Virus record (IMG/VR): IMGVR_UViG_3300017746_005971
Coordinates: 1 to 20,966 of that record
Reading direction: 5' to 3' (one strand)
From: a virus
DNA length: 20,966 bases
Position numbers and translations under genes: made by a program. Below the pieces are notes generated by a model. That model saw only the letters and a list, made by a program, of their open reading frames with translations. It searched no databases and had not been told where the DNA came from. Positions within the stretch are counted from its first letter, which is position 1. Every line of letters starts with the position of its first letter. This document shows, piece by piece, positions 3,098-18,642 of the stretch.

Positions 3098-4207
3098 ATG
3101 CTTAAGAAAATCCAAGAAAGAATATTTCCTTTCATAATTGCACTATCAGCACTATCTGTTAGTGCTTCTGCTGCTTTCTATTCTGTTAGTGGTCTCAGTA
3201 AGTTGTTTGCAGGAGCAGCATTTGCTGTTATAGTAATGGCAGCTTCTTTAGAAGTTGCTAAGTTAGTTATTGCTTCTTTACTCTATCAATATAGAAAAAC
3301 TCTTCCAATTTTATTAAAATTTTATTTATCAATAGCTTGTTTTGTATTAATATTAATTACTAGTATGGGTATTTATGGGTTTTTATCTGCAGCATACCAG
3401 GAAACATCAGCTAAAGCCGGAAGTGTAGATTCCCAAATTGCATTAATTGAAACCAAAAGAGATAATATTAGGGAACAGTTAGCGGTGTATAATGACGAAA
3501 AAAGCACTATTAATAGTGCCGTAGCTGATTTACGTACGGGTTTATCTAACAATAAAATACAATATACAAACGCTGAAGGCGTATTAATAACTACAACCTC
3601 TAGGGCAACACGTCAATCATTAGAAAAACAACTAGACCAAGCTATTGAACGTCAAAATAAAATTAATTCTAAGGTAGATACTTTAAATGAGCAATTATTT
3701 AATTATGAAACTGAAATAGTAGAAGTATCAGTTAATAATGATATAGCAGGAGAACTAGGCCCACTTAAATACCTATCAGGGTTAACTGGGATTCCTATGG
3801 ACCAAATTATTAATTACCTTTTATTAACTATTATATTTGTGTTTGATCCATTAGCTATTGCTTTAGTAATTGCAGCTAATTATGCCTTTGAAAAATTAAG
3901 GCCTAAAACAAAAAAAAACCTTTACGGTGAGAAGGTAATAATTGAAGATAAAGACCCTATAGAAAATCTACAAGACGAAGATGAATGGGAAGCAGCTGAA
4001 AGGAGAATGAATATAATAGGTCAAAATGGGAATGATGGAGACCATTACTATGATGAGCCCTTAAGTAAAGAAAATTTAGAGGAACAGCTATCATCAACTT
4101 CTAAAAATAGAAAATATGGGAGTAAAGGGTGGAAAACTCTAGAAAAAAAATTACAAAATTTAAAAAAAAAAGATGATCGTAATGATGATCTTACTATAAA
4201 ATATTAA
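3098..4207 (+). CDS. Large membrane protein with periplasmic-type coiled coil, unknown function
   Basis: A 369-residue protein not assigned to a characterised family. It has three hydrophobic segments near the N-terminus (about residues 10-30, 36-62 and 71-97), a long heptad-rich region (about 106-208, rich in Gln, Glu and Lys), then a fourth membrane segment (about 238-262) containing FVFDPLAIALVIAANYAF, and an acidic then basic hydrophilic tail to the end. This layout suggests two pairs of helices with a coiled coil on one side of the membrane. I have seen similar FDPLA-containing membrane proteins in tailed phages without a known role. Its place after the lysis cassette allows a spanin-like or envelope-remodelling role, but virion or superinfection-exclusion roles are equally open. 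A terminator follows it. Confidence 0.75.
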   Translation: MLKKIQERIFPFIIALSALSVSASAAFYSVSGLSKLFAGAAFAVIVMAASLEVAKLVIASLLYQYRKTLPILLKFYLSIACFVLILITSMGIYGFLSAAYQETSAKAGSVDSQIALIETKRDNIREQLAVYNDEKSTINSAVADLRTGLSNNKIQYTNAEGVLITTTSRATRQSLEKQLDQAIERQNKINSKVDTLNEQLFNYETEIVEVSVNNDIAGELGPLKYLSGLTGIPMDQIINYLLLTIIFVFDPLAIALVIAANYAFEKLRPKTKKNLYGEKVIIEDKDPIENLQDEDEWEAAERRMNIIGQNGNDGDHYYDEPLSKENLEEQLSSTSKNRKYGSKGWKTLEKKLQNLKKKDDRNDDLTIKY

Positions 4208-4230
4208 AAATAAATTAAAGATTTCCGCGT

Positions 4231-4258
4231 AGGGGGTTGGCTTAGCCATCCCCCTTTT
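4231..4258 (+). terminator. Hairpin terminator after the coiled-coil membrane protein
   Basis: A GC-rich hairpin in an AT-rich background: A-G5-x-TGG (4231-4240) pairs with CCA-x-C5-T (4246-4255) around a CTTAG loop, with one T-T mismatch, followed by TTTT. It is the likely end of the lysis transcription unit. Its left arm contains the TTGG box of a promoter-like element that reads into the next gene. Confidence 0.85.
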
Positions 4259-4267
4259 GTATATTTA
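4237..4267 (+). promoter_or_regulatory. Promoter-like element P1 (TTGG, 20-nt spacing, TATATTTA)
   Basis: TTG at 4237-4239 (TTGG) is followed after exactly 20 nt by TATATT at 4260-4265. The same geometry recurs upstream of three other genes in intergenic gaps (11232, 17982, 20549). It resembles Bacteroidota promoters (-33 TTG, -7 TAnnTTTG). If it is active, transcription would start near 4272, which favours translation of the next gene from 4306 rather than 4276. Confidence 0.65.
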
Positions 4268-4305
4268 CCAGGTAAATGAGGTGCGAACCTAAATCAATTA
4301 AAATT

Positions 4306-4752
4306 ATGCTTAAAAAGGTACCTAAAAAACCTAGTGGGAGAAGAGCTTTACCCTTTTATTGGTGGAGAAGGTATAAAACTCATAAACCTTTACCCTCTAA
4401 ATATCCTCTACTTCAAAAAATTCAAAATGGAGATTTTAAATATTCTCCATTTTTCCAACAAGCTGAATGGGAATTACATTGGATGAAAGATGAACAAGAA
4501 GAATTTATAAAAAATTATCAAGGAAGAGAACCAGAACTAGATTATCTTTATATGGAGATTGAATTACGTGCCAGAAAACGTTACAATAAACTTATAGAAG
4601 ATGCTTATAAGGATGAAAATGAAAAATTAGAAAAAATTGTTACTTTATTCTGTAAAAACTTCAAAATACAAAAAGAAGAATTTAAAGATTTAATATCTAA
4701 ATTTGATAAAAATTTAGAAAGTTTATATAATTATTGTAAAAAATACTATTAA
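4306..4752 (+). CDS. Hypothetical protein, Trp/Lys-rich
   Basis: A 148-residue protein I do not recognise. An in-frame ATG at 4276 would add ten residues, but the upstream promoter P1 would start transcription only a few bases before it. The ATG at 4306 has an A/T-rich leader like its neighbours and a start (MLKK) similar to other genes here, so I prefer it. The N-terminal third is basic and aromatic (FYWWRRYKTHK), the middle has a Trp/Glu-rich segment (AEWELHWMKDEQEEF), and the rest is predicted helical and charged, with no membrane segment or known motif. It is the first gene of the unit leading to the transglycosylase gene and overlaps a small membrane ORF by TAATG. Confidence 0.7.
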   Translation: MLKKVPKKPSGRRALPFYWWRRYKTHKPLPSKYPLLQKIQNGDFKYSPFFQQAEWELHWMKDEQEEFIKNYQGREPELDYLYMEIELRARKRYNKLIEDAYKDENEKLEKIVTLFCKNFKIQKEEFKDLISKFDKNLESLYNYCKKYY

Positions 4753-4901
4753 TGGTAGAATTTATTAAACATGCTTTAGGAATTTGTGGTGAGCATTGGC
4801 ACCCAAATATTTTCACATTTATTTTAAGTGGGCTTGGATTTACTCCTGTCTTAGCGTATATTAAATACAAATATAAAACCTATAACAATAATGAAGATTA
4901 A
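4752..4901 (+). CDS. Small 49-residue membrane ORF between 4306 gene and the transglycosylase
   Basis: An open frame of 49 codons starts at the ATG that overlaps the previous stop (TAATG) and ends 11 bases inside the next gene. The protein begins MVEFIKHALG, contains CGEHWHPN, has one hydrophobic segment (about residues 19-35) and ends in a basic then acidic tail (KYKYKTYNNNED). Without it the 138 bases between the flanking genes would be the longest gap in the window, and its tight overlaps on both sides match the packing of the other genes. A one-helix membrane protein of unknown role is the best description. A Cys/His/Trp-containing motif directly before the helix is its only distinctive feature. 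Confidence 0.65.
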   Translation: MVEFIKHALGICGEHWHPNIFTFILSGLGFTPVLAYIKYKYKTYNNNED

Positions 4902-5682
4902 AGTAAGTCATGAAACTCCTCTTTGCTTGTTAGATGATAGTCAAAAATTTAATGATTATGATTATTGTCTCCCCCATCTATTAGATGAAGAACCGGCATA
5001 TGAAAAATATTTTAGAAAAGCAAAAAAAGAAGGACGTTACATTATAATGGATAACTCACTCCATGAGTTAGGTGAAGCTTACACCCATGAACGTCTTATA
5101 TATTGGATTAACGAATTAGAACCTAATGAATTTATAATTCCAGATGTTTGGGAAAATGCTGAAGAATCTATCCAAAATGCTGAAATATGGAACCTTTATG
5201 ACTTTCCTGAAGGGGTTGAAAAAGTAGTAGTTGTACAGGCAACAACATTACATGAGGCTGCTCAATGTGTTAAAGCTTATAAAAACCTAGGGTACGGAAA
5301 AATTTGTTTTTCTTATGGTGCTTCTTATTATAATGATATATGCACTCATCCTAATAAAGACTTAGGTAAAGCATTAGGAAGATTATTTGTCATTTCAACC
5401 TTAATAAAGACTGGAGAAATAAAACAAGATGATAGAATCCATTTATTAGGCTGTGCTGTGCCTCAAGAATTTGGGTGGTATAATGGAATTAATTGTATTG
5501 AATCTATTGATACTTCTAACCCCGTAATGGCCTCTATAGAAAATACAAAATACAACCTTTCAGGATTAAATCATAAACCTAAGGCTAACATGAATGATTA
5601 TTTTTTTATGTTAGATGATCAAATAGATTATGATTTACTAGAAAATAATTTAAAAATGTTTAAACAAATAAATAATATATAA
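4891..5682 (+). CDS. dpdA: Short TGT-like DNA guanine transglycosylase (DpdA-like), putative
   Basis: A 263-residue protein with sequence marks of the tRNA-guanine transglycosylase fold. Residues that line up by motif with TGT are Asp54 in IIMDNS (DSGG equivalent), Asp85 in IIPDVW, Gln116 in VVVQATT (IVQGG equivalent), HLLG at 184-187, and Asp207 in the ESIDTSNP segment, where the catalytic nucleophile would lie. DpdA enzymes of this superfamily swap guanine in DNA for a 7-deazaguanine such as preQ0. The protein is about 110 residues shorter than bacterial TGT and has no clustered CxCxxC zinc motif. The neighbouring queC, queD, queE and folE supply the substrate, which makes a DNA rather than tRNA target likely. 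Another base-exchange enzyme or a diverged TIM-barrel protein remains possible. Confidence 0.72.
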   Translation: MKIKVSHETPLCLLDDSQKFNDYDYCLPHLLDEEPAYEKYFRKAKKEGRYIIMDNSLHELGEAYTHERLIYWINELEPNEFIIPDVWENAEESIQNAEIWNLYDFPEGVEKVVVVQATTLHEAAQCVKAYKNLGYGKICFSYGASYYNDICTHPNKDLGKALGRLFVISTLIKTGEIKQDDRIHLLGCAVPQEFGWYNGINCIESIDTSNPVMASIENTKYNLSGLNHKPKANMNDYFFMLDDQIDYDLLENNLKMFKQINNI

Positions 5683-5683
5683 T

Positions 5684-5896
5684 ATGGAAATGCTTAGTTT
5701 ATATGACTATCAAGGTCATGCAGATAAAAATGGGACAGGGTTAAAAGTTAATACCTATGCACAACTTAGAAACCAACCTTACGAAAAAAGGTTATTAGAA
5801 TTTAATAATACAGAAGTATTTTTATATACTCGAGAATTTTTAGATGAATATTTTGAAATAGCAAAAATCTTTAATAATGAATTTGTAGTAGAATAA
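5684..5896 (+). CDS. Hypothetical small protein (70 aa)
   Basis: A 70-residue soluble protein I do not recognise. It starts one base after the stop of the transglycosylase gene (TAATATG) and ends one base before the next gene, so it is part of the same operon. The N-terminal half (LSLYDYQGHADKNGTGLKV) is polar and the second half is acidic and aromatic (FLYTREFLDEYFEIA). No metal-binding, membrane or nucleotide-binding motif is visible. A second Met two codons in is an alternative start. The context suggests an accessory role in, or simple linkage to, the base-modification cluster. Confidence 0.65.
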   Translation: MEMLSLYDYQGHADKNGTGLKVNTYAQLRNQPYEKRLLEFNNTEVFLYTREFLDEYFEIAKIFNNEFVVE

Positions 5897-5897
5897 T

Positions 5898-6092
5898 ATG
5901 GCAAAGTTAACAAGAAATGTAAATTACGCAAATTACAGATGGGAAGAATATGTGCTAACAGAAGAAGAATTAGCACAGTGGAAAACAGGTAATGAAGATC
6001 TCCAACAAGAAATCATAGATAATGCAGATTGGGACTTAGTAAGAGATAAACCAATTGATGATTATAGTGAACCAAAATTTGTAGAAGAATAA
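5898..6092 (+). CDS. Hypothetical small acidic protein (64 aa)
   Basis: A 64-residue protein without recognisable family. The first 20 residues are basic and aromatic (NVNYANYRWEEY), and the rest is strongly acidic, with TEEELAQW and an Asp/Glu-rich C-terminus. The alternating aromatic and acidic surface could bind a basic partner or mimic nucleic acid, but this is speculation. It lies between two other small genes with 1-base and 4-base gaps, and its start is preceded by AATAAT as in its neighbours. Confidence 0.65.
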   Translation: MAKLTRNVNYANYRWEEYVLTEEELAQWKTGNEDLQQEIIDNADWDLVRDKPIDDYSEPKFVEE

Positions 6093-6096
6093 TAAT

Positions 6097-6312
6097 ATGA
6101 CATTAAAAAAACAAACAATAAGAGGGTTAGAAAATATCCAATTAAATGGAGAACCTACTACTAAAGAAGAATTAATTACTTTAAGTGAAAGTTGGTCTGA
6201 AAATGAAGAAATCATAGTAAGAAAAATTTTAAAGCAAGGTGGAAAATGTAAAGTAGGTTCAGACATTATAACAGTAAAAAGACAAGATCCTATTTATAGT
6301 TTAGTAAGATAA
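6097..6312 (+). CDS. Hypothetical small protein (71 aa)
   Basis: A 71-residue mixed-charge protein I do not recognise. It has a Lys-rich N-terminus, a central acidic helix (LITLSESWSENEEIIVRKIL) and a C-terminal part with KQGGKCKVGSD that might form a beta hairpin. It has a single Cys and no membrane segment. It closes the three-gene run of small ORFs between the transglycosylase gene and queC; a 49-base gap follows, so queC may have its own promoter. Confidence 0.65.
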   Translation: MTLKKQTIRGLENIQLNGEPTTKEELITLSESWSENEEIIVRKILKQGGKCKVGSDIITVKRQDPIYSLVR

Positions 6313-6323
6313 AAGCGTTAGCC

Positions 6324-6335
6324 TATACGTATAAT
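6324..6335 (+). promoter_or_regulatory. Palindrome and -10-like element upstream of queC
   Basis: The perfect 10-bp palindrome TATACGTATA (6324-6333) overlaps TATAAT (6330-6335), 26 bases before the queC start, in a gap of 49 bases. It could be a promoter -10 box with an overlapping operator. No TTG box at the spacing seen elsewhere is present, so the call is weak. Confidence 0.35.
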
Positions 6336-6361
6336 ACCTGGCAAATAATAAAATAAATAAA

Positions 6362-7228
6362 ATGAAACAATTAGAACTTTCTGGTTTTGAAAAACCAAAA
6401 CACGCAGTAGTATCACTTTCAGGTGGTATGGATTCAAGCACATTATTACTAAGATGTCTTGATAAATTTGAAACTGTAACAGCTTTATCTTTTGATTATG
6501 GGCAAAAACATAAGGTTGAACTTAAAAGAGCAAGAGCTTTAGTTGATTATCTAAACCGACAATGTACTGAAAATAATTGTTATGGTGGGTGTAAAATCAA
6601 TTATCAAGTAATTAAATTAGATGGATTGGTTGATTTATTAGACTCAGCATTAGTTGAAGGTGGTGAAGAAGTACCAGAAGGGCATTATGCAGCTGAAAAC
6701 ATGAAAGCAACTGTAGTGCCTAACAGAAATAAAATATTTTCTTCAATAACTCAAGCTGTAGCTTTATCAGTAGCAAATAAAACAGAAGAACCAACAGTAA
6801 TAGCTTTAGGAATTCATTCTGGAGATCATGATATTTACCCTGATTGCAGACAAGAATTTAGAGATGCAGATGATAATGCCTTTAGAATGGGGAATTGGGA
6901 TCATGAGAGAGTAAGTTATTATACCCCTTATCTTAAAGGAGATAAGTTTACTATCCTCCAGGATGGAGAAATATTATGTGGGAAGTTAGGTATTGATTTT
7001 GATGAAGTTTATGCTAGAACTAATACTTCATATAAGCCAACTCCTGAAGGTTGGTCTGATTATAAATCAGCATCATCCGTAGAACGTATTGAAGCATTTA
7101 TTAAATTAGATAGACCCGATCCTGTACAATATGCAGATGAAACAGGTCCCGTTGGTTATGAAACAGCAAAAATATATGTTGAACAAGTTCTTTCAGAATA
7201 CGAAAAAGAACAATTAAAAGTTAAATAA
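6362..7228 (+). CDS. queC: 7-cyano-7-deazaguanine (preQ0) synthase, QueC
   Basis: A 288-residue PP-loop ATPase that should convert 7-carboxy-7-deazaguanine to preQ0 with ATP and ammonia. Diagnostic motifs are SGGMDSS at residues 20-26, SFDYGQKHKVEL (43-54), VVPNRNKIF (118-126) and the YPDCRQEF segment (159-166). The canonical C-terminal zinc site (CGxCxxC preceded by SCY) is not conserved: the corresponding stretch reads TSYKPTPEGWSDYKSASSVER, with Ser, Tyr or Ala in place of Cys. Three cysteines (68, 73, 77) in an unusual insertion might replace that site. An A/T-rich leader with no Shine-Dalgarno precedes the start. It is followed after one base by a small membrane protein. Family identity is very likely; full activity is less certain given the missing cysteines. 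Confidence 0.9.
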   Translation: MKQLELSGFEKPKHAVVSLSGGMDSSTLLLRCLDKFETVTALSFDYGQKHKVELKRARALVDYLNRQCTENNCYGGCKINYQVIKLDGLVDLLDSALVEGGEEVPEGHYAAENMKATVVPNRNKIFSSITQAVALSVANKTEEPTVIALGIHSGDHDIYPDCRQEFRDADDNAFRMGNWDHERVSYYTPYLKGDKFTILQDGEILCGKLGIDFDEVYARTNTSYKPTPEGWSDYKSASSVERIEAFIKLDRPDPVQYADETGPVGYETAKIYVEQVLSEYEKEQLKVK

Positions 7229-7229
7229 T

Positions 7230-7511
7230 ATGAGTGATAGAGAAATTATGAACGCTAAAAAGGGAGGGGAGATATTTACAACTCTGCCCCATAATGATCC
7301 AAAACTAGATAAAGAAGTAGATAAAATTGTTAAACAATTAGCAGGAGCTAATATTAAAGAATTACCTGATGCTTACCTACACCAAAAAATTAGTTTTATT
7401 AAATCTGGTATAAGGATTTTAGGTTATTGTTTTATTCCCTTTAGCTTGGGTTGGGCAACAGCTTTTCTTATATTGAGTGAAGTAATAGGTATAATCGAAG
7501 AATTAGTATAA
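7230..7511 (+). CDS. Small protein with C-terminal membrane segment
   Basis: A 93-residue protein with a soluble, charged N-terminal half (about residues 1-50) and a hydrophobic C-terminal half (about 61-90, containing ILGYCFIPFSLGWATAFLIL and a second hydrophobic run), likely a membrane hairpin or one long helix. No known family is recognised. It is inserted between queC and the thioredoxin gene and starts one base after queC stops, so it is co-transcribed with the preQ0 genes, but nothing links it to that pathway biochemically. Confidence 0.65.
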   Translation: MSDREIMNAKKGGEIFTTLPHNDPKLDKEVDKIVKQLAGANIKELPDAYLHQKISFIKSGIRILGYCFIPFSLGWATAFLILSEVIGIIEELV

Positions 7512-7528
7512 TTTAAAAAACAAATAAA

Positions 7529-7786
7529 ATGAACAAAGGAATTTTATATTTTTCAGCACCCTGGTGTGGACCTTGTAAAGCAATGTCTCCATTAGTAGAA
7601 CAGATGGAAAAAAAAGGACAAATTAAAGTTAAAAAAGTAAACATAGATTATGATGCTACTTTATCTCAAAAGTATAGTGTAAAAAGCATACCTACTATGA
7701 TTTTAACGGATCTACAAGGAAACGAAATAAAAAGAAATGTAGGAGGGATGTCAGAACAACAAATTTTAGAATTTTATAATGGGTAA
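7529..7786 (+). CDS. Thioredoxin-like protein
   Basis: An 85-residue minimal thioredoxin fold with the redox motif WCGPC at residues 12-16 and the conserved cis-proline loop SIPTM at about 54-58. It probably reduces protein disulfides, most plausibly the C-terminal cysteine pair of the phage ribonucleotide reductase encoded at the left end of the window. It lacks the N-terminal strand and helix of longer bacterial thioredoxins, a common shortening in phages. It overlaps queD by 8 bases. It is placed among the preQ0 genes but has no known role in that pathway. Confidence 0.9.
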   Translation: MNKGILYFSAPWCGPCKAMSPLVEQMEKKGQIKVKKVNIDYDATLSQKYSVKSIPTMILTDLQGNEIKRNVGGMSEQQILEFYNG

Positions 7787-8243
7787 ATTTCAATCAAGCA
7801 AAGTATTTGACGGGTTTAGTACAGTATTCCGCCAATGGAAAGCAGAAGACACACACTGTAGATTTTTACATGGTTATGGTATTTCTTTTAAAGTTTATTT
7901 TGAAGGAGAATTAGATCATAGAAATTGGGTTTGGGACTTTGGTGGAATGAAAAGAGCTAAAACTCAAATTGATGGAAAATCTCCTAAAGAATGGATGGAT
8001 TATATGTTTGATCATACTGTAATAGTAGCTGAAGATGATCCTGGTATTAAAGGATTTCAAACAATGGATAAGCTAGGTGTAATTCAGTTAAGAATGATTG
8101 AAGCTACAGGTGCAGAAAAATTTGCAGAGTATATTTATAACAAGCTTAATACTTTTGTGTTTGAAGAAACTGAAGGTAGAGTAAGAGTAATAAAAGTTAA
8201 ATTTATGGAGCATGGAAAAAATGCTGCATATTACAGTGAATAG
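7779..8243 (+). CDS. queD: QueD-like 6-carboxy-5,6,7,8-tetrahydropterin synthase, variant metal site
   Basis: A 154-residue member of the QueD/6-pyruvoyl-tetrahydropterin synthase superfamily, expected to convert dihydroneopterin triphosphate (from FolE) to carboxytetrahydropterin. The catalytic Cys27 in CRFLHGY, the WVWDFGGMK segment (50-58), the DH pair in FDHTV (78-79) and Glu144 are at expected places. Of the three classical zinc histidines, only His31 is plain: the position of the second is Tyr33, and the stretch that normally carries the first reads FSTVFRQW. I recall bacterial and phage homologues with this same FRQW...CRFLHGY pattern, so it may be a subfamily rather than a damaged enzyme. 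It starts inside the thioredoxin gene; queE follows after 21 bases. Confidence 0.85.
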   Translation: MGKFQSSKVFDGFSTVFRQWKAEDTHCRFLHGYGISFKVYFEGELDHRNWVWDFGGMKRAKTQIDGKSPKEWMDYMFDHTVIVAEDDPGIKGFQTMDKLGVIQLRMIEATGAEKFAEYIYNKLNTFVFEETEGRVRVIKVKFMEHGKNAAYYSE

Positions 8244-8264
8244 AAAACCACTTAAAAAAATTAT

Positions 8265-9113
8265 ATGTTAAAACGAATAGAAGATTACAACAAAACCCTC
8301 CCAGTATTAGAAGTTTACACCGCAGTTCAAAGTGAGGGTAGCCGTCAAGGTTACCCCACTATTGTAGTTAGAACAACAGGCTGTACTCATCGATGTTATT
8401 TTGGTGAAGGAGGATGGTGTGATAGTTGGTATACATCAATCCACCCAGAAAAAGGTACATTTACTTTTAATGATATTATTAAAATGTATGATGATAACCC
8501 ACATATTACAGAGATGATGCTTACTGGGGGTTCTCCTACTATGCATCCTAAATTAGTTAATGAATTAACTCACTTTGCACATGATCGAGGTATTTTTATT
8601 ACTATTGAAACTGAAGGTTCTCATTTCTTGAAAACAGATTACCCAATTGATTTATTATCTATTTCTCCTAAATTTAAGAACAGTGTACCTGTTGTAGGAA
8701 CATTAACCCCAAATGGAAAAGTTGTAGATGAAAAAATGATCAAAACCCATAACCGTTTACGATTAAATGTTAATGCTATTTCAGATTCAATTGCATATCA
8801 TAATGATTTTCATATTAAACCTGTTATAGATAAAGATTTAGCAGTTTTACCTGAAGTAGAAAGTTTTATGGAAACTTTAGTAGATGCTTTAGCTGAAAAA
8901 GAGTTTGGTGCTAGTGAATTTGGAGATGAAGCTTTTGATAAAGGAACAATTGCTCAATATCTTAAAGCAAAAACATGGTGTATGCCTGCTGGAGATGATA
9001 AACCAGCATTATTTGAATCTTACCCAATAGTAATGGATATGTGTAGAGATAAAGGTTATAAATTTACAGGTCGTGCTCATATTATGGCTTTTGGAACTGA
9101 ACGTTGTGTCTAA
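8265..9113 (+). CDS. queE: 7-carboxy-7-deazaguanine synthase, QueE (radical SAM)
   Basis: A 282-residue radical SAM enzyme that would contract carboxytetrahydropterin to 7-carboxy-7-deazaguanine. Typical QueE signs are the N-terminal VQSEGSRQGYPTIVVRTTGC substrate and cluster segment, the LTGGSPTMHP stretch that binds SAM, and the ETEG motif at about 125-128. The cluster cysteines are Cys40, Cys44 and Cys52, spaced C-x3-C-x7-C rather than C-x3-C-x2-C, with an insertion of FGEGGW-type residues. QueE proteins are known to vary here. The C-terminal 90 residues are longer than minimal QueE and contain a Cys/Trp-rich KTWCMPAG segment. A GTG-initiated small ORF overlaps its last bases. Confidence 0.9.
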   Translation: MLKRIEDYNKTLPVLEVYTAVQSEGSRQGYPTIVVRTTGCTHRCYFGEGGWCDSWYTSIHPEKGTFTFNDIIKMYDDNPHITEMMLTGGSPTMHPKLVNELTHFAHDRGIFITIETEGSHFLKTDYPIDLLSISPKFKNSVPVVGTLTPNGKVVDEKMIKTHNRLRLNVNAISDSIAYHNDFHIKPVIDKDLAVLPEVESFMETLVDALAEKEFGASEFGDEAFDKGTIAQYLKAKTWCMPAGDDKPALFESYPIVMDMCRDKGYKFTGRAHIMAFGTERCV

Positions 9114-9246
9114 AGACGAAGCACTTTTAATATTAGAAGAAATTAAGGAAAATGTTAATACTTGTTGTGCCATTACTATGGAACCTGATGAGGTATTAGT
9201 ACTGATTGATAAGTTAGAAAATTATATAAATGGTAGAATTAATTAA
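9106..9246 (+). CDS. Small GTG-initiated ORF (46 aa) between queE and the phosphoribosyltransferase
   Basis: A 46-codon frame starts with GTG overlapping the queE stop region and ends 17 bases inside the next gene. The protein is predicted to be two amphipathic helices (KDEALLILEEIKENV and PDEVLVLIDKLENYING) around a TCCAITM linker; the balance of Leu/Ile and Glu/Lys looks like real coding. An internal ATG at 9178 could give a 22-residue form. It fills an otherwise empty 116-base gap, which is large for this region. The function is unknown, and non-ATG starts are uncertain by nature. Confidence 0.5.
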   Translation: MSKDEALLILEEIKENVNTCCAITMEPDEVLVLIDKLENYINGRIN

Positions 9247-9733
9247 TGCTAAGGATATAGATATCCAAACAAAAATAGTAGCAAAACAGATTTCAGATGA
9301 ACATAAAGGTGATAAAACACCTGTAGTAATGGTTGGGTTACTTAATGGTTGTTTTGCGTTTTACGCTGATTTAGTACGTGCTATGCCTATTGATATTGAA
9401 TGTGATTTTATGCGTGTTAAATCATATATAGATCGTAAACAAGGTGATATAGTAATTACTAAAGACCTTGAAACCCCCATTAAAGGTAAACATGTTTACA
9501 TTGTAGATGATATTTATGACACTGGAAATACTATGGAAGTTGTTATTGATTATTTAAAAGTAAAAAAACCATCTTCTATTTCTATTGTTAGTTTAGTTAC
9601 TAGAAAATCATCACCCACACCACCCGTTAAAATGTTTAACGCTTTTAAAATTGATAATGAATGGTTAGTTGGGTTTGGGATGGACAATGAAAAAGGATAT
9701 TTAAGAAATCTACCAGCTATCTATTCTCTTTAA
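9230..9733 (+). CDS. Hypoxanthine/guanine phosphoribosyltransferase
   Basis: A 167-residue type I phosphoribosyltransferase. The PRPP-binding loop is VYIVDDIYDTGNT at residues 89-101, an early PVVMVGLLNG segment corresponds to the pyrophosphate loop, and the C-terminal LVGFGMDNEKGYLRNLPAIY matches the purine-binding end of HPRT enzymes. It would convert free guanine or hypoxanthine plus PRPP to GMP or IMP. In this setting an obvious source of free guanine is the base-exchange reaction of the DpdA-like enzyme, so it may return guanine to the GTP pool that feeds FolE; this is inference. Xanthine PRT is an alternative substrate class. It starts at an ATG within the end of a small ORF. Confidence 0.88.
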   Translation: MVELINAKDIDIQTKIVAKQISDEHKGDKTPVVMVGLLNGCFAFYADLVRAMPIDIECDFMRVKSYIDRKQGDIVITKDLETPIKGKHVYIVDDIYDTGNTMEVVIDYLKVKKPSSISIVSLVTRKSSPTPPVKMFNAFKIDNEWLVGFGMDNEKGYLRNLPAIYSL

Positions 9734-9753
9734 TATTTATAATTAAAATATTA
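9731..9753 (+). repeat. 8-bp inverted repeat reaching the start codon of the 9753 gene
   Basis: TAATATTT (9731-9738) and AAATATTA (9746-9753) are perfect inverted copies around a 7-nt spacer. The right arm ends on the A of the ATG, so an RNA hairpin would cover the start. It is A/T only and could be chance in this composition or a weak transcription-stop signal after the phosphoribosyltransferase gene. Confidence 0.4.
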
Positions 9754-11216
9754 TGGGAAGACCTCTTAAACATGCTACATCAAAACCTTCAAGGTCTATG
9801 AGACAGGGAAATATTGCTGCTCGAGTAGCTAAAGGAAACCTTGGCCCAACCTCAGCAACAGGATACTATAATGCATTTGCCCCTACAGAACCTGGTAAGT
9901 ATATAGTTTATAAAATGTTAGGAGCTTCCCAAGCACCTTTATCTTTTGCACCTCAAACGGATGAAGAGTTTATAAGATTAGCTAATCAAGAAGGAGCAGG
10001 AGCTGACAGTATATCATCAGCCTTAAATTTCTTTGCTTCAGATAGTAATTTTACAGTAGCCGCAATAATTAATACTACAGGAAGTGTAAATGTTAATCCT
10101 TTTTGCGTTTATGATGCTTTAGGAGATAACCCCTCCCCACAAAATGAGTGGTTTAATTCAGTTTCCCCTTTAGATAATATGTCTATAGATAATAAAGAGC
10201 ACGCTTTAAACGAATTTATAGCTATGAGAAGCTTTAATAGTGTAAGATGGGGAGCTCCTTATGCTGGAACTATTATTTATGAGATTGATACTAATGGTAA
10301 TATCTCAACAAAAGTTTCTGCAACCTCATCCCCTTCAAATGGTGATTTTAATGTTACTCAAGGTTATCGTTATGTAGGTAATAAACCTGTTCATTTTATT
10401 GGTGGTGGTAATGGTGATGTAATGTGTCCTGTATCATATTATGGTACAGAATGGGGTTGGTTTTATAGTAGATATACCCCACAAACGGTTAGATTTTATT
10501 GTTTTGTAGATGGTACTAAAATTAAATTATATTCTAGTTTAACTAACTCCCAAATAACAAATGATAATTTAGTCACAACCTTAGAAGGAGATGAAGGGGA
10601 TGTAGTTGAGTATCAAATCCCAACAGATCCAAATTACACAGGTAAGTATTGGCAAATCCATTCCAATGGACCTATAGCAATGACTGGTAGGGGTAGTTCT
10701 GGAGATATGTCAATAGGTGCTTTAGCTGGTGATCGTGTCTATAGAAGATTTGATGAATATGAAAGAACCACTAATAACACTACCCCTAGTGACATATCTA
10801 CATATACAATAGCTGATAGTACCAATAAAGTTTGGGCTCTAAGTATTGCAGATGGCTCAGGAGGAGATAATGAAGTAGGTCACCCTTTAGATCAATTAAG
10901 TAAAAATTATACTTATGGGTATTTGTTAAGATCATATTTTGTATTAAGTCCTTATACTAGTAATACTATTACAATTTCTTCTTGGGATGGTAGTAATTGG
11001 GTAGAGTTTTCTTCACATACCCTTAATGGGACTATAACAGTCCCAGTAGCTGCTTCAAGTGGGTCACAATCTGGGGGTGATAACCCTTTTAATAATAATA
11101 CTTTATGGAAATTTGAAGGTGATGATCCTTTTTATGTTGTTATTAATGATAATAGTAGAGATGAAGAAGCTTTATTAGGGTGGAATGCAGGAGAAGTAGA
11201 TGCCTTTTTTATGTAA
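9753..11216 (+). CDS. Probable virion structural protein
   Basis: A 487-residue protein rich in Asn, Ser, Gly, Thr and aromatic residues, with the beta-rich look of tail, fibre or head-decoration proteins and no signal peptide or membrane helix. It starts MGRPLKHATS followed by a basic, low-complexity segment (about 1-30); many virion proteins of marine T4-like phages start with MGRPL, which is the main reason for the call. The segment at about 48-80 (GKYIVYKMLG...TDEEFIRLANQEG) may be a small separate domain, and the remainder has repeated TxxxxWxL and SWDGSNW-like patterns. No enzymatic motif is seen. It stands alone among nucleotide-metabolism genes, with an inverted repeat at its start and a hairpin after its stop. 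Confidence 0.7.
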   Translation: MGRPLKHATSKPSRSMRQGNIAARVAKGNLGPTSATGYYNAFAPTEPGKYIVYKMLGASQAPLSFAPQTDEEFIRLANQEGAGADSISSALNFFASDSNFTVAAIINTTGSVNVNPFCVYDALGDNPSPQNEWFNSVSPLDNMSIDNKEHALNEFIAMRSFNSVRWGAPYAGTIIYEIDTNGNISTKVSATSSPSNGDFNVTQGYRYVGNKPVHFIGGGNGDVMCPVSYYGTEWGWFYSRYTPQTVRFYCFVDGTKIKLYSSLTNSQITNDNLVTTLEGDEGDVVEYQIPTDPNYTGKYWQIHSNGPIAMTGRGSSGDMSIGALAGDRVYRRFDEYERTTNNTTPSDISTYTIADSTNKVWALSIADGSGGDNEVGHPLDQLSKNYTYGYLLRSYFVLSPYTSNTITISSWDGSNWVEFSSHTLNGTITVPVAASSGSQSGGDNPFNNNTLWKFEGDDPFYVVINDNSRDEEALLGWNAGEVDAFFM

Positions 11217-11226
11217 AAATTAAAAT

Positions 11227-11250
11227 TTAATTTGGAATTGTCCAAATTAA
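11227..11250 (+). terminator. Hairpin after the virion-protein gene overlapping promoter P2
   Basis: A perfect 10-bp inverted repeat (TTAATTTGGA at 11227-11236 and TCCAAATTAA at 11241-11250) has an ATTG loop, starting 11 bases after the stop codon. It lacks a strong T run, so termination may be weak. The TTGG box of promoter P2 lies in its left arm, so it could instead act as an operator-like site. Confidence 0.5.
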
Positions 11251-11262
11251 TTCGTATATTAA
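11232..11262 (+). promoter_or_regulatory. Promoter-like element P2 upstream of folE
   Basis: TTGG begins at 11232, and TATATT lies at 11255-11260, exactly 20 nt after the TTG. The four bases before TATATT (TTCG) are the same in P3. Transcription would start near 11267, giving a leader of about 18 bases before folE, and would run on into the mazG-like and polymerase genes. Confidence 0.7.
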
Positions 11263-11284
11263 ATCAAATAAAAAGTTATAATCA

Positions 11285-11980
11285 ATGGAAAACAAACGAA
11301 GAAAAATTCACGAAGAATTAGAAGTTGTAAAAGAAGGTTTTGCTAATGGTGTTGCACCTGGATTCCCTCTAGAACAATCTGAAAAAGATAAAATGATTGA
11401 CGAAGCCGAAGTAGCCTATGGTCAATTTTTAGATGCTTTAAAGTGTGATTGGAGAAATGATCCAAACTCAATGGAAACACCAAGACGTGTAGCTAAAGCA
11501 TATGTAAACGATTTATGGGCAGGTAGATATACTGCTATGTCCCCTATTACTTCCTTCCCAAGTGATGGTTATGATGGAATTATTATTGAAAGAAATATTC
11601 CACTAACTTCAATGTGTTCACACCACCACCAAACAATTGGAGGGGTAGTTCATATTGGTTACATTGCAGGAGAGGGTGGTCAAGTAATTGGATTATCTAA
11701 ACTAAATAGAATAGTTGAATTATTTGGACGTAGAGGAGCTATCCAAGAACAACTAACATCAGCCATCCATAATGCAGTATGTAAAATTACTGAAGGTAAT
11801 AAGGGTGTAATCGTTACTATAGTAGGAACACATAATTGTGTTAGTTGTAGAGGTGTAAAACATCAAGGTGCTGCTATGGTTACAACTAAAGCATCGGGAG
11901 TATTTAGAGATAATGATAATTTAGCAAGAAAAGAGTTTTTTGACAGTCTGAAGATTAATAACGGAGGACATAATATTTAA
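11285..11980 (+). CDS. folE: GTP cyclohydrolase I (FolE)
   Basis: A 231-residue enzyme that opens GTP to 7,8-dihydroneopterin triphosphate, the first step towards preQ0 (and towards folates). The zinc site is visible as Cys111 and His114 in CSHHH and Cys185 in HNCVSCRG. Other hallmarks are ETPRRVAKAY (64-73), VIGLSKLNRIVELFGRR (134-150) and IQEQLT (153-158). The usual PF after the CEHH motif is replaced by QTIGG, a modest departure. The N-terminal 40 residues are charged and variable, as in other members. It follows promoter P2 and a hairpin. It is separated from queCDE by the phosphoribosyltransferase and virion-protein genes, so the pathway is split over two transcription units. Confidence 0.95.
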   Translation: MENKRRKIHEELEVVKEGFANGVAPGFPLEQSEKDKMIDEAEVAYGQFLDALKCDWRNDPNSMETPRRVAKAYVNDLWAGRYTAMSPITSFPSDGYDGIIIERNIPLTSMCSHHHQTIGGVVHIGYIAGEGGQVIGLSKLNRIVELFGRRGAIQEQLTSAIHNAVCKITEGNKGVIVTIVGTHNCVSCRGVKHQGAAMVTTKASGVFRDNDNLARKEFFDSLKINNGGHNI

Positions 11981-11993
11981 ATAAATAATAGTT

Positions 11994-12506
11994 ATGAAAA
12001 AAGTAAAAGTACCATTCGTAGATGAAGTAGAGGAATTTAATGAAGTTATGGGGAAAGGTTACCAAAATAGAACCACTCCAACCATCAACCCTAAAGACGC
12101 CCAGTTTGTAATTGATTTTATCCAAGAAGAGCTAGATGAGTTAAAAGTAGCAGTTAAAGAAAGAAATATAATTGAAATATTTGATGCTTTACTTGATATT
12201 ACTTATGTAGGTTTAGGTAATGGGGCTTTAGTATTTGGTTTAAAAGATAAAATATTAGATGGTTATGCTGAAGTACAAGCAAGTAATATGTCTAAAATAT
12301 GCCAAACATTAGAAGAAGCAGAAGAAACAGTTAAATTACGCTCTGAACAACAGGGGGAACCTTGTCACTATTTAAGTGATGGTAAAGGTAAATATGTAGT
12401 ATACCGTAGTTCAGATAATAAAGTAATGAAATCAGTTAATTACTTCAGACCAGACTTAGCACAATTTTTTACAGAGCAGGATATTATGGATACCCTTATA
12501 AAGTAG
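11994..12506 (+). CDS. MazG-like nucleotide pyrophosphohydrolase
   Basis: A 170-residue protein of the all-alpha NTP pyrophosphohydrolase (MazG/phosphoribosyl-ATP pyrophosphohydrolase) superfamily. The magnesium-binding pattern is seen as EELDEL (45-50), then Glu61 and Asp64/Asp68 in IIEIFDALLDITYVG. The following VQASNMSK segment is typical of phage members. These enzymes hydrolyse NTPs, dNTPs or the alarmone (p)ppGpp; in phages they are thought to adjust host nucleotide signalling or clean the dNTP pool. The C-terminal 55 residues (with YVVYRSSDNKVMKS) form an extra, probably beta, segment. It lies 13 bases after folE and 7 bases before the polymerase gene. Substrate not determinable. Confidence 0.82.
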   Translation: MKKVKVPFVDEVEEFNEVMGKGYQNRTTPTINPKDAQFVIDFIQEELDELKVAVKERNIIEIFDALLDITYVGLGNGALVFGLKDKILDGYAEVQASNMSKICQTLEEAEETVKLRSEQQGEPCHYLSDGKGKYVVYRSSDNKVMKSVNYFRPDLAQFFTEQDIMDTLIK

Positions 12507-12513
12507 GTTGTAG

Positions 12514-14196
12514 ATGTATAAAAAATGTTTCGCACAAAGAAAAAAGGGAAACCAATTTTTAATTCACCTTTGGGAAGACACAGGTTATAGCAAAATTGAA
12601 TGGACTAACCAAGCTTATGTTGAGTGTGATGACTCTCAATCAACCCATACAGGACTAAATGGGGAATCTCTACGTAAGGTAAGTAATTGGAAATCTGATA
12701 ACTCAAAACTTCACTTCCATGATATGACTCCATACCAAAAATTCTTAGTTGAAAAGTATGGAACAAATGATGAACCTTCAACAACTCAAAAAGAATTTTT
12801 CTTTGATATTGAGATTGAAATGGGTGAAGCTCTTACTGAAGATTATATCAAATCAGCACCTAAAAAGGTAACATCAATTGCTTGGTATGATAAACAAGCA
12901 GATGAGTGGGCGATTTTAATTTTGGATCCAAAATCTAATTTGAAAAGAACAAAAGCAAAAACTAAAGAAATCATTCCCTGTGCTACTGAAGATGAATTAT
13001 TACTTAAATTTCTAGAAAAATTTAGAGAAATTGATCCTGATATTGTAGTAGGATGGAATAGTGACTATTTTGATATACCCTATTTATATTATAGAATGTG
13101 TAATGTTTTAGGAGAAGATGTTGCTCGTTATTTATCCCCGATTGGTTATGTAAGAGAAACTCCTTGGTTTAAAGATCAATACATACAAATTGCAGGAGTT
13201 GAATCTTTAGATTATATGAGATTACATAAGAAATTTAGTTGGAAGGATGAACCCTCATTTAAATTAGATGCTATTGGAGAAAAATATGCTGGGTTAAATA
13301 AAATTGAATATGATGGGAATTTAGATAAATTATTTGATGATGATCCTTTAAAGTTTATCCAATATAACTTTAGAGATGTTGAAATTTTAAAAGTATTAGA
13401 TGAAAAATTAGAGTATTTATCTTTAGTTAAAAATTTGGCACATAAAGGTAAGCATAACTATAGTGAAGTATATGCTAATACTAAAACCCAAGATGGAGCC
13501 ATTTCAGCTTATTTATTAAGTAAAAAAATAGTTCCCCCTGCAAAAGATCGTAACCCTTTATCAAAAAAGAATTATGCTGGTGGTTATTTGTTTTGCCCTA
13601 AAGCTGGAATTTATAATTATGTATTTGATGAAGATTTAACTTCACTGTATCCTTCAATTATTATGACTATTAATATTGGTAAAGAAACTATGGTTGGAAG
13701 AATTATAGATGCTGATGATAGAAATAATCGTTTAGGGTTAAATGATTTAAAACGTAGAGATCCTAGTGAAGAGTTTATTGTTGAAAATGTTAAACGTAGT
13801 AGAACTAAAGTTAATGCTGGTAGGTTAGTAACCATGATAGAACAAAATGAACTATCAGTTTCTGCTAACGGGGTATTATTTAATACAAATCGTGAATCAG
13901 TACTATCAACTATACTTAAAAAATGGTTTGATGAAAGGGTTTTATATAAAAATAAAATGAAAGATGCTTATAAATCTGGTAATAAAGAATTAGGTGCAGC
14001 ATTTCATATGAAACAATATACAATGAAGATTTTACTAAATAGTTTGTATGGTGCAACTGCTCTTGGTAGTTTCCGTTATGGAAATGTTATTTTATCAGAA
14101 GCTATTACATTAAGTGGTCAGCGTATTATCCAAGAAAGTGCTTTAACTGCTAATAGACATATTAATAAAGTTATTAAAGAAGGTATAGAATTATGA
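12514..14196 (+). CDS. 43A: DNA polymerase family B, N-terminal subunit (gp43A-like: exonuclease, motifs A and B)
   Basis: A 560-residue protein matching the front two thirds of T4/RB69-type gp43. It contains the 3'-5' exonuclease motifs FFFDIEIE (95-102, Asp98/Glu100), NSDYFD (182-187) and YNFRDVE (284-290, Asp288), polymerase motif A DLTSLYPS (374-381) and motif B KILLNSLYG (505-513). It stops at residue 560 before motif C, which is in the next gene. Stop and next start overlap as ATGA, as in several other gene pairs here, so the products are probably made together and assemble into one enzyme. T4-like Aeromonas phages with a split gene 43 are known. A single-base error in the assembly cannot be wholly excluded. 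Confidence 0.93.
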   Translation: MYKKCFAQRKKGNQFLIHLWEDTGYSKIEWTNQAYVECDDSQSTHTGLNGESLRKVSNWKSDNSKLHFHDMTPYQKFLVEKYGTNDEPSTTQKEFFFDIEIEMGEALTEDYIKSAPKKVTSIAWYDKQADEWAILILDPKSNLKRTKAKTKEIIPCATEDELLLKFLEKFREIDPDIVVGWNSDYFDIPYLYYRMCNVLGEDVARYLSPIGYVRETPWFKDQYIQIAGVESLDYMRLHKKFSWKDEPSFKLDAIGEKYAGLNKIEYDGNLDKLFDDDPLKFIQYNFRDVEILKVLDEKLEYLSLVKNLAHKGKHNYSEVYANTKTQDGAISAYLLSKKIVPPAKDRNPLSKKNYAGGYLFCPKAGIYNYVFDEDLTSLYPSIIMTINIGKETMVGRIIDADDRNNRLGLNDLKRRDPSEEFIVENVKRSRTKVNAGRLVTMIEQNELSVSANGVLFNTNRESVLSTILKKWFDERVLYKNKMKDAYKSGNKELGAAFHMKQYTMKILLNSLYGATALGSFRYGNVILSEAITLSGQRIIQESALTANRHINKVIKEGIEL

Positions 14197-15125
14197 AACA
14201 TATAGAAGATACTCCTTGGTGGATTTGTGATCCTGAAGATACTAATTATGTAGCATATTCTGATACAGATTCAATTTATATACATGCAGAACCTTTACTT
14301 AGACATTTATATCCTAGTTTTGATGAAATGTCAAGTGAAGATAAGGATGATAAATTAGAAGGAGTTGCTTTAAAATATCAAGATATTATTACTGATTCCT
14401 ATAGTGAATTAGCTACAGATTGTTTTAATGCTAAGGGTACCCATCGATTAGAAATGAAAACTGAGTGTGTTATTAGAGCCGCTTACTTTAGAGCTACTAG
14501 AAGATATGCTCAATGGATTACTAAACAAGAAGGTATTATAAAGGAATCACTTGATGTTAAAGGTCTTGAATTTAAAAAAGCAAATTTTCCCCCTGTATTG
14601 GGTAAGTTTTTCCATAAAGCCTTAGTTGATGTGTTGAAAGGAGCAAAACAAGATGAAATAGATAAAAGATTAAAAGAATTTAAAACCCAAATATTAGATG
14701 GCACTATTCCACTTACAGAATTAGGTAATCCCACCTCAGTAAAAACTTTAAATAAGTATACTGAGAGAAAAGCAAGAGCAGGTGAAATGTTTACAGTTGT
14801 AGCTAAAGGAGCACCAGCAGCTGTAAGAGCAGTTATTAGATATAATGATTTATTAAATTTTTGGGGTTTGAATAAAACACATAGTCAAATAACTCAAGGT
14901 GATAAAATTAAATGGATTTATCTAAAACCCAACCCATACCAAATTGATGCAATAGCATTTTTAGAGTGGGATTTACCAGAAAAAATTCAAAAATTTATTG
15001 AACAAAATGCAGACAGAAAGAAGATTTTTGAATCCATACTGCTTAATAAATTAGAAGGATTTTATAATGATTTAGGGTGGACTTTAAACTTAAACCCCTA
15101 TAAAGAAATGTTTTTTAAATTTTAA
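14193..15125 (+). CDS. 43B: DNA polymerase family B, C-terminal subunit (gp43B-like: motif C and thumb)
   Basis: A 310-residue protein that completes the palm and thumb of the polymerase. Motif C is YSDTDSIY at residues 22-29, with metal-binding Asp24 and Asp26. A KTECVIRAAYFRATRRYAQW segment (about 90-109) corresponds to the KxKKRY region after motif C, and the rest resembles the thumb. The C-terminus (PYKEMFFKF) looks like the clamp-binding tail of gp43. The two subunits together are 870 residues, close to the roughly 900 of T4 and RB69 polymerase, so nothing large is missing. The first 20 residues (HIEDTPWWICDPED) form a link longer than expected between motifs B and C. The clamp gene follows after the carbamoyltransferase. 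Confidence 0.93.
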   Translation: MKHIEDTPWWICDPEDTNYVAYSDTDSIYIHAEPLLRHLYPSFDEMSSEDKDDKLEGVALKYQDIITDSYSELATDCFNAKGTHRLEMKTECVIRAAYFRATRRYAQWITKQEGIIKESLDVKGLEFKKANFPPVLGKFFHKALVDVLKGAKQDEIDKRLKEFKTQILDGTIPLTELGNPTSVKTLNKYTERKARAGEMFTVVAKGAPAAVRAVIRYNDLLNFWGLNKTHSQITQGDKIKWIYLKPNPYQIDAIAFLEWDLPEKIQKFIEQNADRKKIFESILLNKLEGFYNDLGWTLNLNPYKEMFFKF

Positions 15126-15128
15126 AAT

Positions 15129-16730
15129 ATGAAAATATTAGGAATATCAGGGGGAACACATAGTTGTGGTTTAGCTTATCTCAAAAATGGTAAACCTGAA
15201 TTTGCTTTTGAAGAAGAAAGATTTAATAGAATAAAAACTTATAAAGATTTTTATGATGACAAATTTAGATATCCTTATGAATCAGGACAGAATGTTTGGT
15301 TTAATGAAGGTTTTGATTGGAATAAATTAGATTATATAACCTCTCATTATTCTGCTAAAATTACTGAAAAAATTTGGAATGGTATAGGATTAGGTCCTTT
15401 CCCCAAAGAAAAATTTATAAAAGTTAACCACCATAGAGCACATTGCAGTTTAGCTTATTACTGTAGTGGATTTAAAGAAGATACATTAGTAGTATCAATG
15501 GATGCTATGGGTGAAAAATATAGTGCTAGATATTTTATAGGTAGCGATGGTAATATGGAAGATATAGGAAATATCGACGCCAACCATAAATCATTAGGCC
15601 ATTATTATGTTATGTTAACTGAGTTTTTAGGTTTTAGGCGACTTAAAGATGAAGGTAAAGTGGTAGGTACTGCTTCCCATGGTAAGTTTTATGATAAATA
15701 TTATGATGTTTTTAATAATTGTATTGACATTATTGGTACTAGAACTGATAAAGATTATGGAGATGTACTTTCAGGCGGAATATATGAAGATTTTTATGGT
15801 CTTTGGTTTAAAGCATTTGGTAGTAAATTCACATCCTCTGGTAAAGAAATTATAGCATATAATGGTCAATTAGTATTTGAGGAAAAAGTATTAAAAATAT
15901 TTAATAATTTACATAAAAAATATCCTAAAATAAAAAAAGTAGCATTAGCTGGTGGTATATTTGCTAATGTAAAATTGAATAAAAGAATCAATGAATTAGA
16001 ATGGGTTGATGAAGTATTTATTGCTCCCCCAATGGGAGATGAAGGAATACCTCTAGGAGCAACTTTATCAGTACATAAATTAATAAACCCAAGCTTTAAA
16101 CCCTTTAAATTAGATAATATATTTTTAGGTACATCTTATAAAGATAGTGATTTTGAGGTAGACAAAACTAAATATAATGTAAGACCTTATAATGAACAAG
16201 AATTAGCTTATGATTTAAGAGATGGCAATATAGTAGGTTGGTTTAATGGTAGGTATGAACATGGTCCAAGAGCATTATGTAATAGAAGTATAATTGCAGA
16301 TCCTAGCATTCCTGGAATTTATAAAAAAATAAATAATAGGTTACAAAGAAATGATCGTATGCCCTTTGCACCCGTTGTAATTGATAATCATGTAGATGAA
16401 GTATTTGATGTTAAAAAATCAAAATATACAGCTGAATTTATGACTATGTTATATGATACTAAAAAGGAATGGTATGATAAAATCCCAGCAGTAGTCCACC
16501 CAATAGATAAAACAGCTAGAATCCAAATAGTAACAGATAAAAGTAATCCTAAATTTTATAAACTAATAAACCAATTTTGGTCAGTAACGGGAATACCAGT
16601 TTTATTAAATACAAGCTTTAATGTGCATGGTGAGCCTATAGTTTGTCACCCCAAAGAAGCTTTCGTACATTTGGACAACAAAATAGTAGATATCTTAGTA
16701 ATTAATAATAAAGTTTACACTAAAAAATGA
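15129..16730 (+). CDS. NodU/CmcH/TobZ-type carbamoyltransferase
   Basis: A 533-residue full-length carbamoyltransferase. These enzymes use carbamoyl phosphate and ATP (through a carbamoyl-adenylate) to transfer a carbamoyl group to a hydroxyl. Seen are the N-terminal GISGGTHSCGLAY and EEERFNRIK segments, the metal-site HHRAH (101-105) and SMDAMGE (123-129), the GGIFANVKLN nucleotide segment, APPMGDEGIPLGA, GRYEHGPRAL and the C-terminal NTSFNVHGEPIVC of the family. Known substrates are antibiotics and Nod factors. Here the gene starts 3 bases after the polymerase gene and overlaps the clamp gene by ATGA. It may therefore decorate a modified base or a virion glycan; no substrate can be read from the sequence. 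Confidence 0.92.
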   Translation: MKILGISGGTHSCGLAYLKNGKPEFAFEEERFNRIKTYKDFYDDKFRYPYESGQNVWFNEGFDWNKLDYITSHYSAKITEKIWNGIGLGPFPKEKFIKVNHHRAHCSLAYYCSGFKEDTLVVSMDAMGEKYSARYFIGSDGNMEDIGNIDANHKSLGHYYVMLTEFLGFRRLKDEGKVVGTASHGKFYDKYYDVFNNCIDIIGTRTDKDYGDVLSGGIYEDFYGLWFKAFGSKFTSSGKEIIAYNGQLVFEEKVLKIFNNLHKKYPKIKKVALAGGIFANVKLNKRINELEWVDEVFIAPPMGDEGIPLGATLSVHKLINPSFKPFKLDNIFLGTSYKDSDFEVDKTKYNVRPYNEQELAYDLRDGNIVGWFNGRYEHGPRALCNRSIIADPSIPGIYKKINNRLQRNDRMPFAPVVIDNHVDEVFDVKKSKYTAEFMTMLYDTKKEWYDKIPAVVHPIDKTARIQIVTDKSNPKFYKLINQFWSVTGIPVLLNTSFNVHGEPIVCHPKEAFVHLDNKIVDILVINNKVYTKK

Positions 16731-17963: not shown

Positions 17964-17969
17964 CTAAAA

Positions 17970-17981
17970 GCGCCCTTTAGG
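17970..17981 (+). repeat. Right arm of GC-rich inverted repeat flanking hsp20
   Basis: GCGCCCTTTAGG lies 7 bases after the hsp20 stop codon and is the near-inverse of 17481-17491. Its TTTAG can also pair locally with CTAAA at 17964-17968. The TTGG box of promoter P3 begins right after it at 17982. Confidence 0.5.
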
Positions 17982-18012
17982 TTGGTTTATTTAATTAGGT
18001 TTCGTATATTAT
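17982..18012 (+). promoter_or_regulatory. Promoter-like element P3 upstream of the groES/groEL unit
   Basis: TTGG at 17982-17985 and TATATT at 18005-18010 have the same 20-nt spacing as P1, P2 and P4, with TTCG before TATATT as in P2. Transcription would begin near 18017, about 20 bases before the ATG at 18037. Confidence 0.7.
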
Positions 18013-18036
18013 GGTAAATAATAATAATAAAGTTAT

Positions 18037-18632: not shown

Positions 18633-18642
18633 AAACAGAAAA

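Follow-up and report, generated by a model that had tools for sequence, protein, structure and literature searches.

Guanine recycling as a probable role for the phosphoribosyltransferases linked to phage preQ0 DNA-modification genes

What becomes of the guanine that a phage removes from its own DNA in order to put a 7-deazaguanine in its place? The question is raised by a viral fragment of 20,966 bases and 31% GC, from a marine phage (IMG/VR record IMGVR_UViG_3300017746_005971, hereafter the window). It encodes FolE, QueD, QueE, QueC and a DpdA-like DNA guanine transglycosylase and, between queE and folE, a hypoxanthine-guanine phosphoribosyltransferase (HGPRT). The first five genes were reported in an initial annotation and all are confirmed at the positions that it gave; the HGPRT gene (9230-9733) was overlooked there, inside the very interval described. 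The pathway itself is a known kind of system, occurring here in a large clade of aquatic phages, and base replacement of this sort is established as a way to evade restriction. What is new is that a guanine phosphoribosyltransferase (PRTase) recurs with it, best explained as a means of guanine recycling; among the open-access papers searched, none was found that links a PRTase to DNA deazaguanine.

In the scheme that we propose, FolE, QueD, QueE and QueC would make 7-cyano-7-deazaguanine (preQ0) from GTP. The DpdA-like enzyme would then exchange guanine in finished DNA for preQ0 by the two-step mechanism of tRNA-guanine transglycosylases (TGTs), and the swap would block restriction enzymes. 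Exchange of the TGT type sets the original guanine free (PMC6165067), and one base would be expelled per swap. With phosphoribosyl pyrophosphate (PRPP), the phage HGPRT, or the Gpt-type PRTase of its relatives, would turn this guanine into GMP, which could re-enter the pools of GTP, on which FolE acts, and of dGTP for replication. We consider it probable that the phage recycles DpdA-expelled guanine through its PRTase in this way, as part of a preQ0 DNA-modification pathway.

Post-replicative exchange of bases over a whole genome would thus carry a hidden metabolic cost, guanine being discarded at every swap. Without recycling, each modified position would cost two guanine nucleotides, one converted to preQ0 and one expelled. 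The duplex of a 164-kb genome at 31% GC contains about 51,000 G, and replacing all of them in 100 progeny would mean the expulsion of about 5 million guanines.

The HGPRT gene lies on the plus strand and encodes 167 residues. By family its product is an HGPRT, for which guanine is a predicted substrate: it scores 147.0 bits with NCBIfam TIGR01203 (E 4e-43), just below the cut-off of 150, and 86.3 bits with Pfam Pribosyltran, against a cut-off of 26.3, and its closest solved chains are HGPRTs (4e-28). The PRPP motif VDDIYDTGNT is conserved. A first PRTase search with an HGPRT query returned mostly bacterial fragments and unannotated contigs.

In some relatives of the window, the same slot holds a Gpt-type PRTase instead. 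Of the 52 loci whose cluster is complete, 33 have HGPRT, 17 have Gpt, two have neither and none has both. After removal of near-copies and inclusion of loci with a PRTase in an incomplete cluster, 48 dereplicated loci give 28 with HGPRT, 18 with Gpt, two (a single clade) with neither and again none with both. A tree of the five pathway proteins requires four changes at the PRTase slot, and at least three of these changes are HGPRT/Gpt exchanges on well-supported branches. Because two enzymes with the same expected reaction alternate in a slot that is hardly ever empty, it is the activity that seems to be needed there.

The association extends to other phages. FolE carries a fused N-terminal domain of the Gpt type in Vibrio phage VpKK5, in Sphingomonas phage MMDA13, in a Stenotrophomonas phage and in a set of phages of Pseudomonas, Variovorax and Xanthomonas. 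This domain retains both the PRPP motif (DDIIDSG or a similar sequence) and the W(I/V)xxPWE motif typical of Gpt. As a separate gene, the Gpt type adjoins folE in Brevundimonas phages and queE in Pseudomonas jumbo phage MIJ3, lies between QueE and FolE in Flavobacterium phage vB_FspM_immuto (hereafter immuto), forms a QueE-Gpt-QueD-FolE cluster in cyanophage BUCT-ZZ01 and is present in Cellulophaga phage phiST. It is also carried by Campylobacter phages CP220 and CC_R7; 15 Campylobacter phage records were matched with the DpdA query and 15 with the PRTase query. Altogether, the PRTase seems to belong to the pathway as a regular sixth component. Only a shade less probable to us than recycling itself is its more general form, in which a purine PRTase, HGPRT or Gpt, has been repeatedly recruited, swapped or fused to return DpdA-expelled guanine to the GTP pool of FolE.

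A PRTase might also serve general purine salvage from degraded host DNA or RNA, as one more function like the phage nrdA, with the whole neighbourhood being a nucleotide-metabolism module. The nearby nrdA, thioredoxin and MazG genes would fit such a role, but general salvage does not call for PRTase-FolE gene fusions, as found in Queuovirinae-type phages, nor for two PRTase types that substitute for each other at one locus. It is also at odds with the outcome of a neutral query, E. coli Gpt, which gave 16 matches in 50,697 phage records. Eleven come from three lineages (Brevundimonas, immuto and phiST-group phages), all pathway phages; the others are two near-identical host fragments, one Salmonella assembly and two unannotated faecal contigs, and host fragments apart, no named isolated phage beyond the pathway phages was matched. 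Likewise, six control phages that lack the pathway (T4, phiKZ, SPO1, P-SSM2, phi14:2 and N4) have no member of phrog_8995, whose annotation reads simply 'phosphoribosyl transferase'. When viral contigs were searched for the PRTase only, at least one pathway gene was found within 6 kb at 78 of the 80 loci with Gpt and at 20 of the 22 with HGPRT; these queries came from pathway phages and are less neutral than E. coli Gpt. We regard general salvage as unlikely.

Several observations nevertheless weigh against guanine recycling. One viral lineage, represented by records of 173 kb (L186, which carries FolE) and 22 kb (L187), has HGPRT with no detectable QueC or window-type DpdA, and allows general purine salvage. 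The PRTase is missing from one clade within the group to which the window belongs (L051, L123) and is therefore not essential. Nor was a PRTase detected in the pathway phages CAjan, nt-1, MA9V-3, RHEph06, Moby and phiSM, whose hosts may supply the activity. For MIJ3, BUCT-ZZ01 and the Brevundimonas phages a DpdA is not in evidence, the Pfam TGT family being blind to phage DpdA. In the aligned phage HGPRTs an Arg (R125 in the window) stands where E. coli Hpt has the purine-contacting Lys, and specificity could differ. Finally, in the few phages with measured replacement, the presence of a PRTase fits its extent only loosely: CP220 (100%) has one and nt-1, with about 0.1% of G modified, has none, but it is also lacking in CAjan, with about 30-32% (PMC6884629).

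The same Arg might suit a different substrate. The PRTase could make the nucleotide of preQ0 or another deazaguanine, so that the polymerase would incorporate part of the modified base as a dNTP, and its place between QueE and FolE, or fused to FolE in other phages, could be read that way. Yet throughout the clade of the window the PRTase occurs together with DpdA, and in CAjan the deletion of dpdA abolishes modification (PMC6884629). Moreover, MIJ3 and BUCT-ZZ01 carry a PRTase with no detectable QueC, which argues for guanine rather than preQ0 as the common substrate. This makes a deazaguanine nucleotide quite improbable as the product. If guanine is indeed what these enzymes recycle, the PRTase would be the missing bookkeeping enzyme of the pathway and could serve as a marker of phages in which much of the guanine is replaced. 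A function would also follow for phrog_8995 and for the unannotated N-terminal domain of many phage FolEs.

The proposal requires an enzyme that expels guanine from DNA. Its candidate is the 263-residue product of the plus-strand gene at 4891-5682, assigned to phrog_19058, a PHROG without annotated function whose group includes CP220 gp056 and the immuto DpdA. The search with hidden Markov models that had been suggested for the five proteins matched FolE, QueD, QueE and QueC; no family of Pfam or NCBIfam matches the DpdA-like protein. The Pfam TGT family (PF01702) detects none of the phage DpdAs considered here, so its silence is uninformative. In translated searches the product is 37-38% identical to Campylobacter phage proteins and 37% identical to the annotated DNA guanine transglycosylase of immuto, and a profile comparison with the CP220 homologue, of the same PHROG, gives E 2e-49. 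Relatives of it are encoded in over 580 viral stretches. Cui et al. 2023 reportedly name a third subfamily, DpdA3, that permits full replacement. The CP220 homologue itself (L072, 7995-8771) is still annotated as a hypothetical protein.

We built an AlphaFold2 model of the protein from 33 relatives (predicted local distance difference test 93.4, predicted template modelling score 0.90). It is predicted to have the TGT-type (beta/alpha)8 fold: the model superposes on the solved DNA preQ0 insertase DpdA (7ui4) with Z 16.6 and 3.2 Å over 230 residues, on archaeosine TGT with Z 16.8 and on many tRNA-guanine transglycosylases with Z about 16. Structure prediction, named beforehand as the check able to overturn the assignment, leaves it standing, and a TGT-like protein able to insert preQ0, as first annotated, is what the comparison predicts. 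By sequence only, a PDB search with the DpdA profile gave a marginal match to 7ui4 (E 1.4), and its comparison with the profile of CAjan DpdA did not reach significance; only the fold comparison succeeded. Residues D54 (in MDNS), D85, Q116, G187-C188 and D207 (in SIDTSNP) are invariant in the 33 sequences and, compared by sequence order only, come in the same order as the TGT active-site motifs. D54 and D207 are candidate counterparts of D102 and D280, the catalytic residues of TGT (PMC6165067).

Does this protein act on DNA or on tRNA? The preQ0 genes might mainly boost queuosine in host tRNA, and Hutinet et al. suggest a queuosine role where a phage has preQ0 genes and lacks DpdA (PMC6884629). 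In the same work, Campylobacter phages of the CP220 kind were listed as lacking DpdA (PMC6884629). The window has a DpdA of precisely the CP220 kind, however, and in the DNA of CP220 and CPt10 100% of dG is replaced by 2'-deoxy-7-amido-7-deazaguanosine (dADG) (PMC8306585). The CxCxxC...H zinc site of tRNA TGTs is absent from all 33 sequences and the protein is therefore not a canonical tRNA TGT; it also has 263 residues, against about 370 for the tRNA enzymes, and near-complete relatives have no QueF. An action on tRNA is, in our estimate, the least probable of the alternatives, and DNA is the likely target of the exchange.

The complete route from GTP to preQ0 claimed for the window is supported by family matches of all four enzymes. 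By profile, FolE, QueE and QueC are clear family members, and QueD is identified by Pfam PTPS and by a phage-specific PHROG. FolE, GTP cyclohydrolase I (11285-11980, plus strand, like all genes described here), scores 141 bits with its Pfam family (3e-41), against a cut-off of 27, and conserves the zinc ligands C111 (50 of 50 rows), H114 (at least 97%) and C185 (48 of 50). The QueD-like 6-carboxytetrahydropterin synthase (7779-8243) matches PTPS at 1e-14 (54.8 bits) and the QueD-like PHROG at 2e-38; C27, H31 and H79 are conserved, and the HGH zinc motif reads HGY throughout the clade. The QueE-like radical S-adenosylmethionine enzyme, a 7-carboxy-7-deazaguanine synthase (8265-9113), matches the QueE-like PHROG at 7e-47 and aligns to a solved QueE at 6e-8; its cysteines C40, C44 and C52, spaced Cx3Cx7C, are invariant in 67 of 67 sequences.

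QueC, the putative 7-cyano-7-deazaguanine synthase (6362-7228), reaches 125.8 bits with Pfam QueC (2e-36), against a cut-off of 22, and its SGGxDS PP-loop, SGGMDS in the window, is invariant across the clade. It misses the NCBIfam equivalog cut-off (119.6 against 150.3 bits), and the C-terminal zinc cysteines are missing from QueC of the whole clade, as well as from that of MMDA13 and a Stenotrophomonas phage; we therefore name it QueC-like.

The pathway set occurs in the same gene order in dozens of other viral contigs, so its grouping is beyond chance. The initial annotation had divided it into two transcription units with folE apart, a division that the layout does not support: all genes lie on the plus strand with short gaps, and no plus-strand terminator was found in 4200-12600. 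Only one open reading frame, at 9753-11216, separates folE from the upstream cluster, with gaps of 19 and 68 bases. It lies between HGPRT and folE, encodes a 487-residue protein without a Pfam or PHROG match, is variable among relatives and gave no match at the corresponding place in those such as L017, L018, L020 and L031; the protein is probably not part of the pathway. Three further neighbours recur: a 93-residue protein (7230-7511), beside QueC in many relatives as well; an 85-residue thioredoxin (7529-7786), which accompanies the cluster in most relatives; and a MazG-like nucleotide pyrophosphohydrolase (11994-12506), which adjoins folE in relatives too.

Which base would the DNA finally carry? 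No QueF, amidotransferase or ArcS-like gene is seen in the window, as had been noted, and neither QueF nor a formyltransferase was found in five relatives of 158-170 kb. Since these relatives, unlike immuto, lack both, 2'-deoxy-7-cyano-7-deazaguanosine (dPreQ0) is plausible as the simplest prediction for the window's clade. The dPreQ0 product of the initial annotation is upheld to that extent; the nearest characterised relative, by contrast, makes dADG. The final base could be dADG if an unrecognised enzyme hydrated the nitrile or if QueC stopped at the amide, either of which would be compatible with guanine recycling. That the phages with the most closely related characterised DpdAs have dADG at 100% (PMC8306585) speaks for this, as might the zinc site lost from the clade's QueC, except that the QueC of CP220 retains the zinc cysteines, so that zinc loss does not track dADG. 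No YaaA/DpdC-type gene was found in 14 records, a weak test since CP220 also lacks one. We see dADG as a real but lesser possibility, and dPreQ0 as the likelier product.

Two candidate explanations were dropped on the way. Loss of the QueC zinc site was tried as the sign of a dADG-making QueC and rejected, CP220 making dADG with its cysteines in place. Tailoring genes outside the window, which the initial annotation had allowed for, were also discarded: among the relatives, QueF and a formyltransferase were found only in immuto, and a YaaA/DpdC-type gene in none. In immuto the formyltransferase and QueF lie near DpdA (L071, 16948-18924), which suggests formylated 2'-deoxy-7-aminomethyl-7-deazaguanosine (dPreQ1) in its DNA. 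BUCT-ZZ01 and MIJ3 (L168 and L148), for their part, have preQ0-pathway genes and a Gpt-type PRTase, with QueC not detected; any base inserted there may be plain 7-deazaguanine or its 7-carboxy form.

Downstream of the cluster, a family B DNA polymerase is split into overlapping open reading frames at 12514-14196 and 14193-15125; relatives show the same split, some with an extra frame in between. It is followed by a NodU/TobZ-type carbamoyltransferase (15129-16730), detected in only some relatives. Elsewhere a phage carbamoyltransferase makes 5-carbamoyloxymethyl-cytosine (PMC8670742), and by analogy a second DNA modification is conceivable here. Genes for Hsp20-like, GroES and GroEL proteins (17544-20274) adjoin those of the sliding clamp and clamp loader.

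Among known systems, phage CAjan (Hutinet et al. 2019, PMC6884629) resembles the window in having FolE, QueD, QueE, QueC and DpdA and no amidotransferase, and its product was predicted and measured as dPreQ0 (PMC6884629). It differs in its DpdA, from which that of the window is a distant, shorter subfamily, and in the PRTase: CAjan FolE has no PRTase domain, and no Gpt-like gene is detectable in that phage. Campylobacter phages CP220 and CPt10 share the DpdA group phrog_19058 (37-38% identity), QueC and a PRTase. Their genes are scattered, however, their product is dADG, their QueC keeps the zinc cysteines and their PRTase is of the Gpt type, whereas that of the window is an HGPRT. Closest in layout is immuto, with the same gene set and DpdA group and a PRTase between QueE and FolE; that PRTase is again Gpt-type, and immuto also encodes QueF and a formyltransferase, which make dPreQ1 or a formyl derivative likely there.

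The DpdA of the bacterial dpd island (7ui4), which inserts preQ0 into DNA, has the TGT fold predicted for the window protein, but its solved chain counts 413 residues against 263 and the two are only 15% identical. With bacterial Hpt and Gpt, the phage PRTases have in common the PRPP motif and the overall family. Unlike them, they are tied to deazaguanine genes: the HGPRT type has Arg for the purine-contacting Lys, and the Gpt type is shortened and sometimes fused to FolE.

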